Source: Fibrobacter succinogenes (GTDB lineage Bacteria; Fibrobacterota; Fibrobacteria; Fibrobacterales; Fibrobacteraceae). Taken from it: a DNA stretch of 64,000 nt. The position numbers were made by a program, and so were the translations under genes. The notes below the pieces were generated by a model, which did not search any database, had not been told where the DNA came from, and saw nothing but the letters and a program-made list of their open reading frames with translations. Location of the stretch: the NCBI GenBank assembly GCA_902762305.1, contig CACWNW010000008.1, positions 62,001 to 126,000 of the forward strand, given 5' to 3'. Positions 20,335 through 25,275 of this stretch are shown one piece after another (position 1 is the stretch's first letter; each line of letters starts with the position of its first letter).

Positions 20335-21891
20335 CTACTTCTTCAACGCCCTGAAAAGCGCTTGCAGCTTTTCGGGGTTCTTTATTCCTGGGGCATCTTC
20401 GACGCCGCTGGAAACGTCGATGAGCTCGGGCTGGAACTTCTCGCAAATCGCGGTAACGTTCTCGGGCGTGATGCCGCCTGCAAGCCACAGCGGGATGTCG
20501 CCCGCTTTTTCCCGCAGCAGGCTTTCGGGAATGGTCTTGCCGGTACCGCCGGGAATGCCTTCCACTTTCGCGTCCAGCAAGACGCGGGGTTCTCCGTTCT
20601 TGCGGAGGTTGGCGACGTATTCGAAGTCTGCGGGTTCGCCTACGCGGGCCGCGCAATAGTGGGCGAGGCTGGTGTCGGCGGCTGACGGCGTGATTCCGTG
20701 GAACTGCACTGCATCCAATGCGCCTTCCTGCGCAAGCCGGATGGCCGTCTTGCCTTCCTCTGAGTTCGGGTCGGTAATGACGCCGACGAGGAGCGGGACG
20801 TTTTCGGGCGCGCGGGATGCGCGGATTTTCGCGGCAAAACTGTGCACGAATTCCTCGCTCGTGAGTCGCTTTGTGGTGCTGAAAACAAACCCGAGCATGT
20901 CGGCTCCGAGTTCGGCGGCAAGCAAGCCGTCTTCTTCGCGTGTGATGCCGCAGATTTTGACCAGCGGGCTGCGCGCATTATTTTGGCCGTGCGCATTACT
21001 CGGGCCTGCAGTTGCGCAGGCTTCGCGCTTGGCGTCGCGACGTTCCGCGAACTTTTTCCAGAACTTGCCCTTCGCGTTTTCGCTCCCGCTTTCGAATGCG
21101 CTGACCACATCCTTCGCAAGAGTCGGGTTCTTCGCGACGGCTTCGCCTACGAGGATTCCCGTAAACCCGAGACTGCGGGCATAATCGGCGTCGGCCGGCG
21201 TGTGGATTCCCGATTCAAAAACCGCCTTCGCCGGGAGCTTGCTGCGTACCGATGCCGGCACCAGCGGGTCCGTATGGAATGTTGCAAGGTCACGCGAATT
21301 CACGCCTGCGACAATCGTCGTTGCCGCTGCATCGCCGAGAGCTTCCGTCACGATATGCAGTTTGCGAAAGTCATCTTTTTCGCGAACTTCGACAAACGCC
21401 TGCATGTCGAAACTTTGGGCGCGTTTCGCCATCTTCACAAGCTGTTCATCATCCAGGATGCGCGCAATCAAAAGGACGGCATCGGCGCCGCAACGGTAAG
21501 CGATATCGATTTCGTCTTCGTAGAGCAAGAAATCCTTGCGGAGCACGGCACAGGCATGCAGCCCCTGCGAACGCCGCAATTCCATCAGGTCTGCAACAGC
21601 AATCAGGTCGTGCAGAGTTCCCTTGAAGAAATTCCCTTCGGTCAATACCGAAACGGCCTGCGCATGCGCTTCTGCATAGGTGTTTGCAAGGTCTATCGGG
21701 TCCAGGTCCGGAGCGATGTCGCCTTTCGACGGCGATGCGCGTTTGACTTCGAGAATCGCACCCGCGTTGCCGAGGAATTCCGTATGGCCTACGCGGCGCT
21801 TTTCCGGAATATTGATGCCGAAATTCAGACCCAGCCGCTCGATGTCGGCTTTGCGCATCCGCACGATCTTCGCAAGAATATCTTCACTCAT
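20335..21891 (-). CDS. trpCF: Bifunctional indole-3-glycerol-phosphate synthase / phosphoribosylanthranilate isomerase
   Basis: 518 residues. The N-terminal TrpC barrel (about 1-255) has ILEVKRASPSKGDI, VLRKDFL and the GVNSRDL and FESGIHTPAD segments. The C-terminal TrpF barrel (from about 300) has KICGITREEDG, the GFVFSTTKR loop, QFHG and WLAGGITPENV. An Ala/Lys/Arg-rich linker joins them. The two activities perform consecutive isomerisation and indole-glycerol-phosphate formation in tryptophan synthesis. Such fusions are known from Escherichia coli and others. It is the last gene of the local trp operon, 140 bp after trpGD, with tandem repeats between. trpB and trpA are not in this window. 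Confidence 0.95.
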   Translation of the reverse strand: MSEDILAKIVRMRKADIERLGLNFGINIPEKRRVGHTEFLGNAGAILEVKRASPSKGDIAPDLDPIDLANTYAEAHAQAVSVLTEGNFFKGTLHDLIAVADLMELRRSQGLHACAVLRKDFLLYEDEIDIAYRCGADAVLLIARILDDEQLVKMAKRAQSFDMQAFVEVREKDDFRKLHIVTEALGDAAATTIVAGVNSRDLATFHTDPLVPASVRSKLPAKAVFESGIHTPADADYARSLGFTGILVGEAVAKNPTLAKDVVSAFESGSENAKGKFWKKFAERRDAKREACATAGPSNAHGQNNARSPLVKICGITREEDGLLAAELGADMLGFVFSTTKRLTSEEFVHSFAAKIRASRAPENVPLLVGVITDPNSEEGKTAIRLAQEGALDAVQFHGITPSAADTSLAHYCAARVGEPADFEYVANLRKNGEPRVLLDAKVEGIPGGTGKTIPESLLREKAGDIPLWLAGGITPENVTAICEKFQPELIDVSSGVEDAPGIKNPEKLQALFRALKK

Positions 21892-22031: not shown

Positions 22032-23627
22032 TTATGCGTTTGTTGCGACCTTGACTTCCTCGATCTTCTTGAGGACGGAACCGTCTTCCATGGCCTTAAT
22101 GGCCTTGTCGAAGCCTTCCTTGATGCTCTCCGCCTTCTTGCTGATGTAGAGGGCGGCACCGGCATTCAGGGCGCAGGCATACTTGATGCCCGGGCGACCG
22201 TTGCCGTTCAGCACGTCGAGAGCGAGGTTGAAGTTGTCGACGCCCGTACCGCCGGCCAGGTCTTCGGGGTCCACGGCCGGGACGCCGAAGTCCTTCGGGT
22301 CGATGCGGTATTCGCGATATTCACCGTCTTCGAGGATTTCTGCAATGGTCGTCGGGACGCATGGAGAGATTTCGTCGTAGCCGTCGTCGGAAATGGCGAC
22401 CATCACGCGCTTGGCACCGAGGGACTTTGCTGCCTTGGTGAAGGGTTCCAGAATCGACTTGCTGTAAACGCCGAGCATCAGGTACTTGGCTTCGGCCGGG
22501 TTCGTGAGGGGGCCGAGCAGATTCATGATGGTCTTCACGCCGAGGGCACCGCGAACCGGGCCGGCAAAGCGCATGGCGCTGTGGTAGACTGGAGCCATGA
22601 GGAACACGAAGTTCGTCTTGTCGATGACGCTGGCGGCTTTGTCCGGGGTCATGTCCAGCTTGAAGCCGGCTGCGGTGTAGAAGTCGGCAGCGCCGGACTT
22701 GCTGGAAACAGCGCGGTTGCCGTGCTTGGCAATCTTGGCGCCACAGCTTGCAGCGATAAGGCCGGAAAGAGAGCTCACGTTGAAGCTTCCCTTGCCGTCG
22801 CCACCGGTACCCACGATGTCGGTGAGTTCGTCACCGCTGTACGGGAACTTGCGCTTCTTGCTGCTCAAAACCTTGGCGCAGCCCGCGATTTCTTCGGTCA
22901 CGGGGCCCTTGCTGGAAAGTGCGGTGAGGATAGCGGCCATCTGGCGTTCGTCCATGATACCATCGGTCAGGTCTTCCATGAACATTTCGGCGGTTTCGCG
23001 GGTCAAGTCCTTGCCTGCTGTCAGCGTGTTCAGGATTCCGCGGATGTCGAGCGGTTCACGACGGTAGTTGAGGAAAGCCTTGAAGAATTCGTCGGCGCGG
23101 CCACTGGCAATGGATTCCGGGTGGAACTGCACGCCTTCAATCGGGAGCGTCTTGTGGCGAATGCCCATGATGTCACCGTCGGTAGCGCGGGCGGTCACTT
23201 CGAAGTCAGAAGAGAGCGTCGATTCGTCGATGACGAGGCTGTGGTAACGCGTGAAGATGTTCTTCTTGCCGATGGTGCGGAAAAGTCCCTTGCCGTCGAG
23301 GTCAATTTCTTCGGCGATGCCGTGCTTGATGAACTTGGCCTGCACAATCTTTGCTCCGAAAGCATAACCGATGGCCTGGTGGCCGAGGCACACGCCGAGA
23401 ATCGGGAGCTTGCCAGCAAAGTGCTTGATGGCTTCCACGGATATGCCGGCGTCTTCGGGGCGGCCCGGGCCCGGGCTTACGATAAGGCGGCTCGGGTTCA
23501 GTTTTTCGATGTCGGCAATGGTGCATTCGCGGCTACGGAGCACGCGGATTTCTTCAGTGGTAATCTTGGCCAGCGCCTGGTAAACGTTGTAAGTAAAAGA
23601 GTCGTAGTTATCGATAATGACGATCAT
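22032..23627 (-). CDS. trpGD: Anthranilate synthase glutamine amidotransferase fused to anthranilate phosphoribosyltransferase
   Basis: The frame is open to 23870, but that part is the shadow of trpE; the ATG at 23627 begins the typical TrpG start (IVIIDNYDSFTYNV). 531 residues. TrpG amidotransferase about 1-190: GPGRPEDAG, nucleophile Cys in GVCLGHQAIGY, and FHPES. TrpD about 200-531: DIVGTGGDGKGSFNVS, KHGNRAVSSKSG and GPLTNPA. GGAG lies ten bases upstream inside the end of trpE; the two genes are one base apart. TrpG supplies ammonia to TrpE, and TrpD transfers phosphoribose to anthranilate. The same fusion is known in enterobacteria. Confidence 0.95.
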   Translation of the reverse strand: MIVIIDNYDSFTYNVYQALAKITTEEIRVLRSRECTIADIEKLNPSRLIVSPGPGRPEDAGISVEAIKHFAGKLPILGVCLGHQAIGYAFGAKIVQAKFIKHGIAEEIDLDGKGLFRTIGKKNIFTRYHSLVIDESTLSSDFEVTARATDGDIMGIRHKTLPIEGVQFHPESIASGRADEFFKAFLNYRREPLDIRGILNTLTAGKDLTRETAEMFMEDLTDGIMDERQMAAILTALSSKGPVTEEIAGCAKVLSSKKRKFPYSGDELTDIVGTGGDGKGSFNVSSLSGLIAASCGAKIAKHGNRAVSSKSGAADFYTAAGFKLDMTPDKAASVIDKTNFVFLMAPVYHSAMRFAGPVRGALGVKTIMNLLGPLTNPAEAKYLMLGVYSKSILEPFTKAAKSLGAKRVMVAISDDGYDEISPCVPTTIAEILEDGEYREYRIDPKDFGVPAVDPEDLAGGTGVDNFNLALDVLNGNGRPGIKYACALNAGAALYISKKAESIKEGFDKAIKAMEDGSVLKKIEEVKVATNA

Positions 23628-23628
23628 C

Positions 23629-25030
23629 TTAGTTTTCTCCTTCGAGTACGGCTCTGATTGCTCCGAGCTTTTCGTTCGTTTCTTCAAATTCGCGGTCAGC
23701 ATTCGAGGCCGCGACAATGCCACCACCGGCCTGCAGGCTAATGGTCTTACCCTGCTTGAGGCAGCAACGGATGGCGATGCAGAAATCCAAGTCACCGTCG
23801 GATTCCATGTAGCCCACCGCACCGGCGTAGAAGCGGCGTTTGACCTTCTCGAGGCCAGAAAGGATTTCAATCGCGCTGATTTTCGGGGCGCCGCTCACCG
23901 TACCTGCCGGGAAGCTGGAGCGCAGCACTTCGATGGCCTTCTTGTTCTTCGCCACACGGCCCTGCACGTCAGAGACCAGGTGAATCACGTGGCTGAACTT
24001 TTCGCATTCCATGTACTTGGTGGTTTCCACCGTACCGGCTTCGCAGACGCGGCCGAGGTCGTTACGGGCCAGGTCCACTCATCAATGCTTCGTCTTCCAC
24101 GTCATCCTTGCCGCGGCGACGGGTGCCTGCAATCGGGTGAATCGTCGCAATGCCTTCACGCACACGCACAAGGCTTTCCGGCGAGGCACCGATAAACTGG
24201 TGCGTACCGTAATCGAGGAAGAACATGTACGGAGACGGGTTCACCGTACGGAGGCGGCGGTAAATGTCCAGCGCCGCGATGTCGCTTGCAAACTGAATGC
24301 GGCGCGAAGGCACGGCCTGCACGATGTTGCCAGCAATGATATGCTTCTGCAATGCTTCGACCTTTTCCACGTATTCCTTGCGGGACTGTTCCAGGTCGGT
24401 CATAGTGATGCCCTTGCTGTACTGCTGTTCGGGAGCGAGGTAGCTGAAGTCGAGGTCAGCAAGGCGGGCCTTCACGCGTTCGATGGCGGCCTTCAGGTCA
24501 ATCTGGTGTTCTTCGTAGTTCAGGGCGAACAGGTGAAGCTTTTCGGTAAAGTGGTCGAACACGATGTAGATGTGACCCACCAAGAATTCGGCTTCGGGGA
24601 TGTTCAGTTCATCCACCTGCGGGGCAAGGCGAATGGTATCGCAGCGGGCACAGAATTCGTAGCCCAGGTAGCCCACGCCCGAAGAAGGAATAGGAATCTG
24701 GTTAGGCGGCACCGTATTTTCGGCAGAAATCAGTGTGAGGGCGTCCAGAATGTCGCCTTCGCCTTCCTTGAGGAAGGTGCTTTCCTTGCCGTCGATAACG
24801 ATGCTCACGTCCTTCTCGTTCTGGCGCAGACGGAAGCCCTCGTCCACCATCAAGGTAGAGTAGCGGCTGCGGCCGTGCGAGAAACTCGCGGATTCAAAGA
24901 TGGCCTTCGCACCGAGCTTCTTGCCGAGCGAAAACGGGGTGTAACGTTCGCCCGGGAGTGCCACGTAAATGCTGTCGGTACGCGGCTCGTAGCCCTGGCT
25001 TTCGGTGATGTGCTTGATCTTGTTAGTCAT
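23629..25030 (-). pseudogene. trpE: Anthranilate synthase component I, disrupted by an internal deletion with frameshift
   Basis: The reading frame from the ATG at 25030 encodes the TrpE N-terminal part and most of the chorismate-binding domain (GVGYLGYEF, NIVQAVPSRR, FIGASPESLV, HPIAGTRRRGKDDVEDEALM), then stops at 24062. The next frame, to 23629, continues VDLARNDLGRVCEAGTV through PAGTVSGAPK to the normal C terminus. Between the conserved ALM and VDLARND only one base is present (24076-24082). In the family about 16 residues, including the E-x-x-H-x-M-L motif, belong there, so roughly 47 bp are missing. As written, no active TrpE can be made. Either a real loss (tryptophan auxotrophy or another TrpE) or an assembly error. 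Confidence 0.8.
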
Positions 25031-25108
25031 TTGATCCTCTGGTTTATAAACTCGTTTGCGTTTTAGTCCGCAAAGGCTTTTTTCGTCCCGGAGGATATCG
25101 TTTTAAGC

Positions 25109-25142
25109 AAAAAAGGAAGGCCTCCGTGAGTCCGGAAGCCTT
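25109..25142 (-). terminator. trp attenuator (intrinsic terminator in the leader)
   Basis: Reading the minus strand, AAGGCTTCCG (25142-25133), loop GACTCA, CGGAGGCCTT (25126-25117), then CC and six T (25114-25109). An outer AAGCAAA/TTTGCTT pairing can extend it. The 5' arm and loop contain CCGGACTC (25135-25128), which can alternatively pair with GAGCCCGG upstream (in 25184-25175), excluding the terminator. Confidence 0.85.
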
Positions 25143-25186
25143 TGCTTAAAATCTTGGGTGATTTGCTACAAATACCGGGCTCTATG

Positions 25187-25240
25187 TTAGAGTCCGCGCC
25201 ACCAACGACGGTTGAAAATTGTACTTGTTGCGTTCACCAT
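25187..25240 (-). CDS. trpL: trp operon leader peptide (17 aa) with tandem Trp codons
   Basis: ATG at 25240 to TAA at 25187 encodes MVNATSTIFNRRWWRGL. The two adjacent TGG codons (25204-25199) are followed at once by CGCGGACTCTAA, whose CGGACTCTA (25196-25188) pairs with TAGAGCCCGG (25184-25175). The second element can instead pair with CCGGACTC in the terminator. Ribosome stalling at the Trp codons would cover the first element and free the second to block termination. This is the classical logic of ribosome-mediated trp attenuation. The leader sits 157 bp upstream of trpE. No ribosome-binding site is seen; see the promoter entry. Confidence 0.85.
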   Translation of the reverse strand: MVNATSTIFNRRWWRGL

Positions 25241-25246
25241 GCCCAA

Positions 25247-25275
25247 AAATTATCAATTTCGCATTCCGCTGGCAA
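25247..25275 (-). promoter_or_regulatory. Candidate trp operon promoter
   Basis: On the minus strand TTGCCA (25275-25270), a 17-bp spacer, and TAATTT (25252-25247). Transcription would start within a base or so of the trpL ATG at 25240, implying a leaderless leader-peptide mRNA, consistent with the absence of a ribosome-binding site. Predicted only. Confidence 0.5.

Follow-up and report, generated by a model that had tools for sequence, protein, structure and literature searches.

Regulation of the trp operon in Fibrobacter

The trp operon of this Fibrobacter locus begins with a short open reading frame (ORF) that carries two adjacent Trp codons and lies ahead of trpE, which raises the question of whether the trpE-trpGD-trpCF operon is controlled by a ribosome translating that ORF. 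The features of the locus and of its relatives argue strongly for a classical ribosome-mediated transcription attenuator, a reading to which we assign a probability of roughly 0.93.

Anatomy of the trpE leader

In the window (i.e., the whole stretch of 64,000 nucleotides that was analysed), the attenuator occupies positions 25240-25109 of the minus strand and is composed of a leader ORF, four pairing regions and an intrinsic terminator located between the leader ORF and the first structural gene. The end of the U6 tract is separated from the trpE ATG (25030) by 78 nt on the same strand. The individual features are as follows:

25247..25275, minus strand: putative promoter, with -35 TTGCCA (25275-25270), a 17-bp spacer and -10 TAATTT (25252-25247)
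25187..25240, minus strand: leader ORF of 17 codons, MVNATSTIFNRRWWRGL followed by a stop, assigned from the sequence; its WW or WWW is kept in relatives
25204-25199, minus strand: tandem regulatory TGG TGG within the leader ORF, assigned from the sequence
25188..25196, minus strand: region 1, CGGACTCTA, partner of region 2, overlapping the final codons of the leader ORF
25175..25184, minus strand: region 2, TAGAGCCCGG, partner of region 1 or region 3
25128..25142, minus strand: region 3, the 5' arm and loop of the terminator
25135-25128, minus strand: CCGGACTC, the part of region 3 that pairs with region 2
25126-25117, minus strand: region 4, CGGAGGCCTT, which together with the U6 tract forms the 3' half of the terminator (25109..25126)
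25114-25109, minus strand: U6 tract, the end of the intrinsic terminator

The original prediction of a complete trp attenuator with a WW leader peptide is thus borne out, as are its four pairing segments, all of which could be placed on the minus strand (the strand had been left unstated), and the duplication of the 7-mer CGGACTC in regions 1 and 3. Two of its details hold in part: region 4 and the U6 tract are both present, but two C residues intervene between the stem and the U-tract, and the 1:2 and 2:3 helices proposed as alternatives both exist, but with one internal A/C mismatch apiece in the window. The suggested folding of the leader (143 nt) yields -51.6 kcal/mol (z = -4.58), and none of 200 dinucleotide shuffles was as stable. 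The terminator was also recovered independently by a terminator scanner.

Putative promoter and a probably leaderless leader ORF

Promoters were sought by a free TTGACA-N16/18-TATAAT scan upstream of the leaders. In most of the distinct trpE, trpB, trpC and other-genus leaders, 6-8 nt separate the -10 from the first in-frame ATG, and in the leuA leaders described below this distance is mostly 7 nt. The homologous promoter of the relatives reads TTGCCA/TTGACA-N17-TA(T/A)NTT and mostly lies 6-8 nt ahead of the leader ATG; its counterpart in the window, TTGCCA-N17-TAATTT, is 6 nt from the ATG. For some leaders, the window among them, the free search scored a different site best, and the window's own promoter, the -10 of which is a weak match to the consensus, was not picked by a generic promoter scan.

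Since transcription starting some 7 nt downstream of the -10 would place the 5' end of the mRNA at or beside the leader AUG, and since a distance of 6-8 nt leaves no room for a leader Shine-Dalgarno sequence, translation of the 17-codon leader ORF probably takes place on a leaderless mRNA. Shine-Dalgarno sequences are present at trpE and leuA, unlike the leaders. Precedents for leaderless leader ORFs come from Sinorhizobium meliloti, where the attenuator RNA rnTrpL begins with the ATG of its leader ORF (PMC7298713), and from S. lividans, where TrpL is encoded by a leaderless transcript (PMC8079986), so that the design would be one shared with Sinorhizobium and Streptomyces.

Alternative pairing and ribosome geometry

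Where charged tRNA-Trp is plentiful, the ribosome would proceed to the UAA codon and cover region 2, such that 3:4 forms and transcription terminates before trpE. Where charged tRNA-Trp is scarce, the ribosome would stall at UGG-UGG and cover region 1; regions 2 and 3 would then pair ahead of the synthesis of region 4, allowing RNA polymerase to read through into trpE.

The pairing on which such a switch would depend was assessed in two alignments. Alignment A1 comprises 49 distinct trpE and trpB leaders and is not fitted to structure; the covariance model R1, built on A1 with helices 1:2 and 3:4, was used to align 74 matches (alignment A2). Among these 74 matches, 91.2% of the cells of 1:2 and 3:4 are paired, both sides have changed at 16 of the 17 pairs, and covariation amounts to 0.327, as compared to 0.174 for shuffled and at most 0.120 for slid controls, all of these being statistics that are favoured by an alignment fitted to the modelled structure. 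The 2:3 helix, which is outside the model, is paired in 95.3% of the cells of A1 versus at most 63.4% on sliding. The expectation that the alternative pairings are conserved in relatives was consequently upheld for 1:2 and 3:4, with compensatory changes, and for 2:3 as regards its retention, but the latter shows few both-side changes. In a horse-associated lineage, several regions have changed coherently, region 2 to GAGTCTGG, region 3 to CCAGACTC and region 4 to CTGGAGG.

For the geometry of the ribosome, the leading edge of the footprint was set 16 nt from the first P-site base. With the ribosome at the last Trp codon, region 1 is covered and region 2 free in 55 of 55 distinct leaders, and in all 55 the predicted fold is 2:3 as long as region 4 has yet to be transcribed. 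A ribosome that has reached the stop codon masks region 2, and in 54 of the 55 leaders the fold then contains 3:4 but not 2:3. Once region 4 has been made, 3:4 is more stable than 2:3 at equilibrium, even with region 1 masked, and the switch must therefore be kinetic; the switch of the E. coli trp attenuator is likewise kinetic.

Conservation among relatives

The best named matches of the TrpE sequence are Fibrobacter metagenome-assembled genomes (92-98% identity), in agreement with the Fibrobacter-type genome that had been surmised. A WW or WWW leader ORF precedes trpE in ten related genera (g1, g2, g16 and g18-g24, counted by the labels of the genome search), and the claim of enterobacterial logic in a distant phylum is supported by this conservation, by the retention of 1:2, 2:3 and 3:4 and by a geometry that fits all 55 leaders at the Trp codons. 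The Trp codons, the loss of which would have spoken against the attenuator, are constant across the ten genera, while the remainder of the leader peptide turns over; in the further genera, both the peptide and the stem sequences are clearly different. Within the Fibrobacter group, every trpE locus retrieved by name (L004-L043, L057) is preceded by a leader with WW or WWW. The lone exception in the group is L003, in which trpE comes immediately after trpBA and a WWW leader is found before trpB.

The covariance model matches in 107 of the 168 genomes of the phylum. In the distant classes of the phylum (L113-L132), a WW leader was not found, except in L122, a member of another family, which has a WW-type leader before trpE. 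Likewise, no WW leader was found within 700 nt in the genomes of genus g17 (TrpE 35-38% identical). Nor was one found upstream in about 37 Treponema loci (TrpE about 60% identical), and this TrpE lineage therefore does not share the attenuator.

In many Treponema of rumen and gut (L044-L082), TrpE, about 60% identical to that of Fibrobacter, is closer to it than the TrpE of other classes of the Fibrobacter phylum (30-40% identical), which suggests gene transfer.

Additional attenuators in the genome and its relatives

Most Fibrobacter genomes contain at least two matches to the covariance model. The genome of the window contains only two at E < 0.01, one before trpE and the other before trpBA, the latter a second attenuator with the WWW leader MNSAIRFNRWWWGSRT (G000:C3:90469-90560; L137, L165). 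Three relatives (L208, L209, L211) have a further, third attenuator, with a WWW leader, before trpCF. Upstream of leuA, the same genome codes for a Leu-rich leader, MRKNLNLRLLLCIAHGARF, followed by a terminator (L283), and variants of this leader, e.g., MRKTLNLLLLLSIATEARF, occur in relatives (L273, L277-L281). Convincing His or Phe leaders were not found at hisG and pheA, and a Val-rich leader at ilvB was found in one distant genome only (L271).

Several observations concern individual loci. The Shine-Dalgarno region of leuA may form a hairpin. In five relatives (L208, L209, L212, L213, L214), the trpB attenuator is preceded, at a distance of about 190 nt, by a degenerate copy that has no Trp codons but whose terminator looks intact, and which may be a relic or have changed in function; such tandem trpB attenuators were rejected as only apparent, the extra copies having no Trp codons. 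In one lineage (L290, L293, L302), trpB has a leader of the trpE type (RWWRGL) that retains a 5a-like element (see below), as if copied from the trpE attenuator. Four other loci (L135, L137, L140, L155) have a stretch resembling a palindromic repeat, GATCCTTCGACTTCGGGC...GCTCAGGATGACA, between the trpB attenuator and trpB.

A possible second tier of control at trpE

Between the terminator and trpE are two further elements, followed by the Shine-Dalgarno sequence of the gene:

25088..25096, minus strand: element 5a, ATCCTCCGG, a complement of both region 4 and the Shine-Dalgarno of trpE
25070..25079, minus strand: element 5b, AAGCCTTTGC, a complement of region 3 on its extended 5' side (GCAAAGGCTT)
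25034..25040, minus strand: trpE Shine-Dalgarno, AGAGGAT, assigned from the sequence and conserved in relatives

Element 5a stands out as a conserved island, with column identities of 0.95 (5a) and 0.88 (5b) versus 0.41-0.72 for the spacers. Pairing of 5a with the Shine-Dalgarno is retained in 95.3% of cells and with region 4 in 97.9%, whereas sliding gives no more than 52% and 68%, respectively. Opening of the Shine-Dalgarno is on average 3.6 kcal/mol cheaper with region 4 available (0.45 with region 4 scrambled), and this gain is seen in 31 of 35 leaders. These properties allow for a second, translational tier in addition to attenuation in Fibrobacter: in a readthrough transcript with 3:4 formed, 5a would hide the trpE Shine-Dalgarno, and with 2:3 formed, the free region 4 would capture 5a and expose it. 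A single ribosome sensor might thereby couple attenuation to the initiation of trpE translation with no TRAP-like protein, which we likewise consider a tentative proposal. The trpE leader of B. subtilis combines attenuation with a structure masking the Shine-Dalgarno of trpE, and thus has two tiers (PMC12288461); the resemblance to the proposed role of 5a is one of analogy, the sensor being TRAP in B. subtilis and a ribosome on a Trp ORF here.

The record of change in 5a is mixed. Automatic pair counts gave zero compensatory changes for both 5a:Shine-Dalgarno and 4:5a, in part owing to a one-column misalignment of L034. With the sequences anchored by hand on the motifs, 5a and the Shine-Dalgarno have changed together in L034/L289, over 9 bp, and in two lineages 5a changes along with region 4; the search pattern used for this anchoring itself demands TCCTCC or CTCCCC and is thus not an independent test. 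Against the second tier, the two-sided changes come from one or two hand-aligned lineages, 5a is of the CCUCC type and hence the complement of many Shine-Dalgarno sequences, four leaders show no gain from region 4, and 5a is absent from the other genera; in the order-level relatives L028 and L033 it is divergent. As the automatic counts hold no compensatory pairs, the second tier is proposed here as a possibility.

Alternatively, 5a and 5b may merely stabilise the antiterminated RNA, 4:5a within 3:5b blocking the re-formation of 3:4, with translation unaffected. The pairing of 3:5b in 91.8% of cells (at most 55.3% when slid), the G-U compatibility of several 5b variants and the nested order of 4:5a and 3:5b are all in line with such a role, but 3:5b would need a pseudoknot in the 2:3 state, and the complementarity of 5a to the Shine-Dalgarno would be left unexplained. 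We regard this explanation as unlikely.

The operon and the trpE frameshift in this assembly

The genes downstream of the attenuator are the following:

24062..25030, minus strand: 5' part of trpE, up to a frameshift; the 3' remainder extends in a different frame as far as 23629
22032..23870, minus strand: ORF with a candidate trpG-trpD fusion, second gene of the operon, assigned from sequence motifs (the listed ORF begins upstream of the MIVIIDNYDSF start)
20335..21891, minus strand: candidate trpC-trpF fusion, third gene of the operon, assigned from sequence motifs

Compared with relatives L003, L005 and L007, trpE shows a 47-bp deletion and frameshift at 24062-24090 (minus strand), and a second chorismate-binding gene was not found in the assembly. 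Both observations would fit an attenuator that is now a relic in this strain, its trpE being inactivated. However, the attenuators and the trpGD and trpCF ORFs are without visible decay, and a local error in the assembly, a 3.6-Mb draft of 57 contigs, is at least as likely as a true deletion; a relic thus seems rather improbable.

Relationship to known attenuation systems

T-box elements, TRAP and riboswitches control trp genes in other phyla, but regulation by such a sensor here, with an incidental WW ORF, is highly implausible, as neither T-box nor Trp leader models were among the Rfam matches of the leader at E values up to 10 and the Trp codons are constant over ten genera while the flanking residues vary. 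An Rfam scan of the window likewise gave no family at the gathering level, Trp_leader and T-box included, and the ribosome-mediated attenuator proposed here is therefore not filed under the Rfam leader-peptide families.

Like the enterobacterial trpL (E. coli; Rfam Trp_leader), the Fibrobacter attenuator has a short ORF with tandem Trp codons, the 1:2/2:3/3:4 logic over four regions and an intrinsic terminator before trpE. Unlike trpL, it lacks a match to any Rfam leader model, the 6-8 nt between its -10 and its leader ORF have no room for a Shine-Dalgarno, and there are several separate attenuators per genome. The trp attenuators of Corynebacterium and Streptomyces also have leaders with double or triple UGG and a terminator/antiterminator, and in C. 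diphtheriae they precede both trpB1EDGC and trpB2A (PMC1262725); the peptide and stems in Fibrobacter are nevertheless unrelated to the actinobacterial ones, and trpCF and, with Leu codons, leuA are added to the set. In S. meliloti, the leader RNA and peptide (rnTrpL/peTrpL) also act in trans.

A survey of 2010 gave Proteobacteria and Actinobacteria as the only groups with known leader-peptide systems and added a His case in Firmicutes (PMC2965389), and a search of the open-access literature returned no description of a leader-peptide attenuator for Fibrobacter or its phylum. Attenuation as a mechanism has long been known; what appears to be new is its occurrence in this phylum, along with parts of its anatomy. 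The Fibrobacteraceae-wide set, with its probably leaderless ORFs before trpEGD, trpBA, sometimes trpCF, and leuA, would represent a standing strategy in Fibrobacter, a major cellulose degrader of the rumen. The divergent stems and peptides also provide a data set on the repeated origin versus the inheritance of attenuators.
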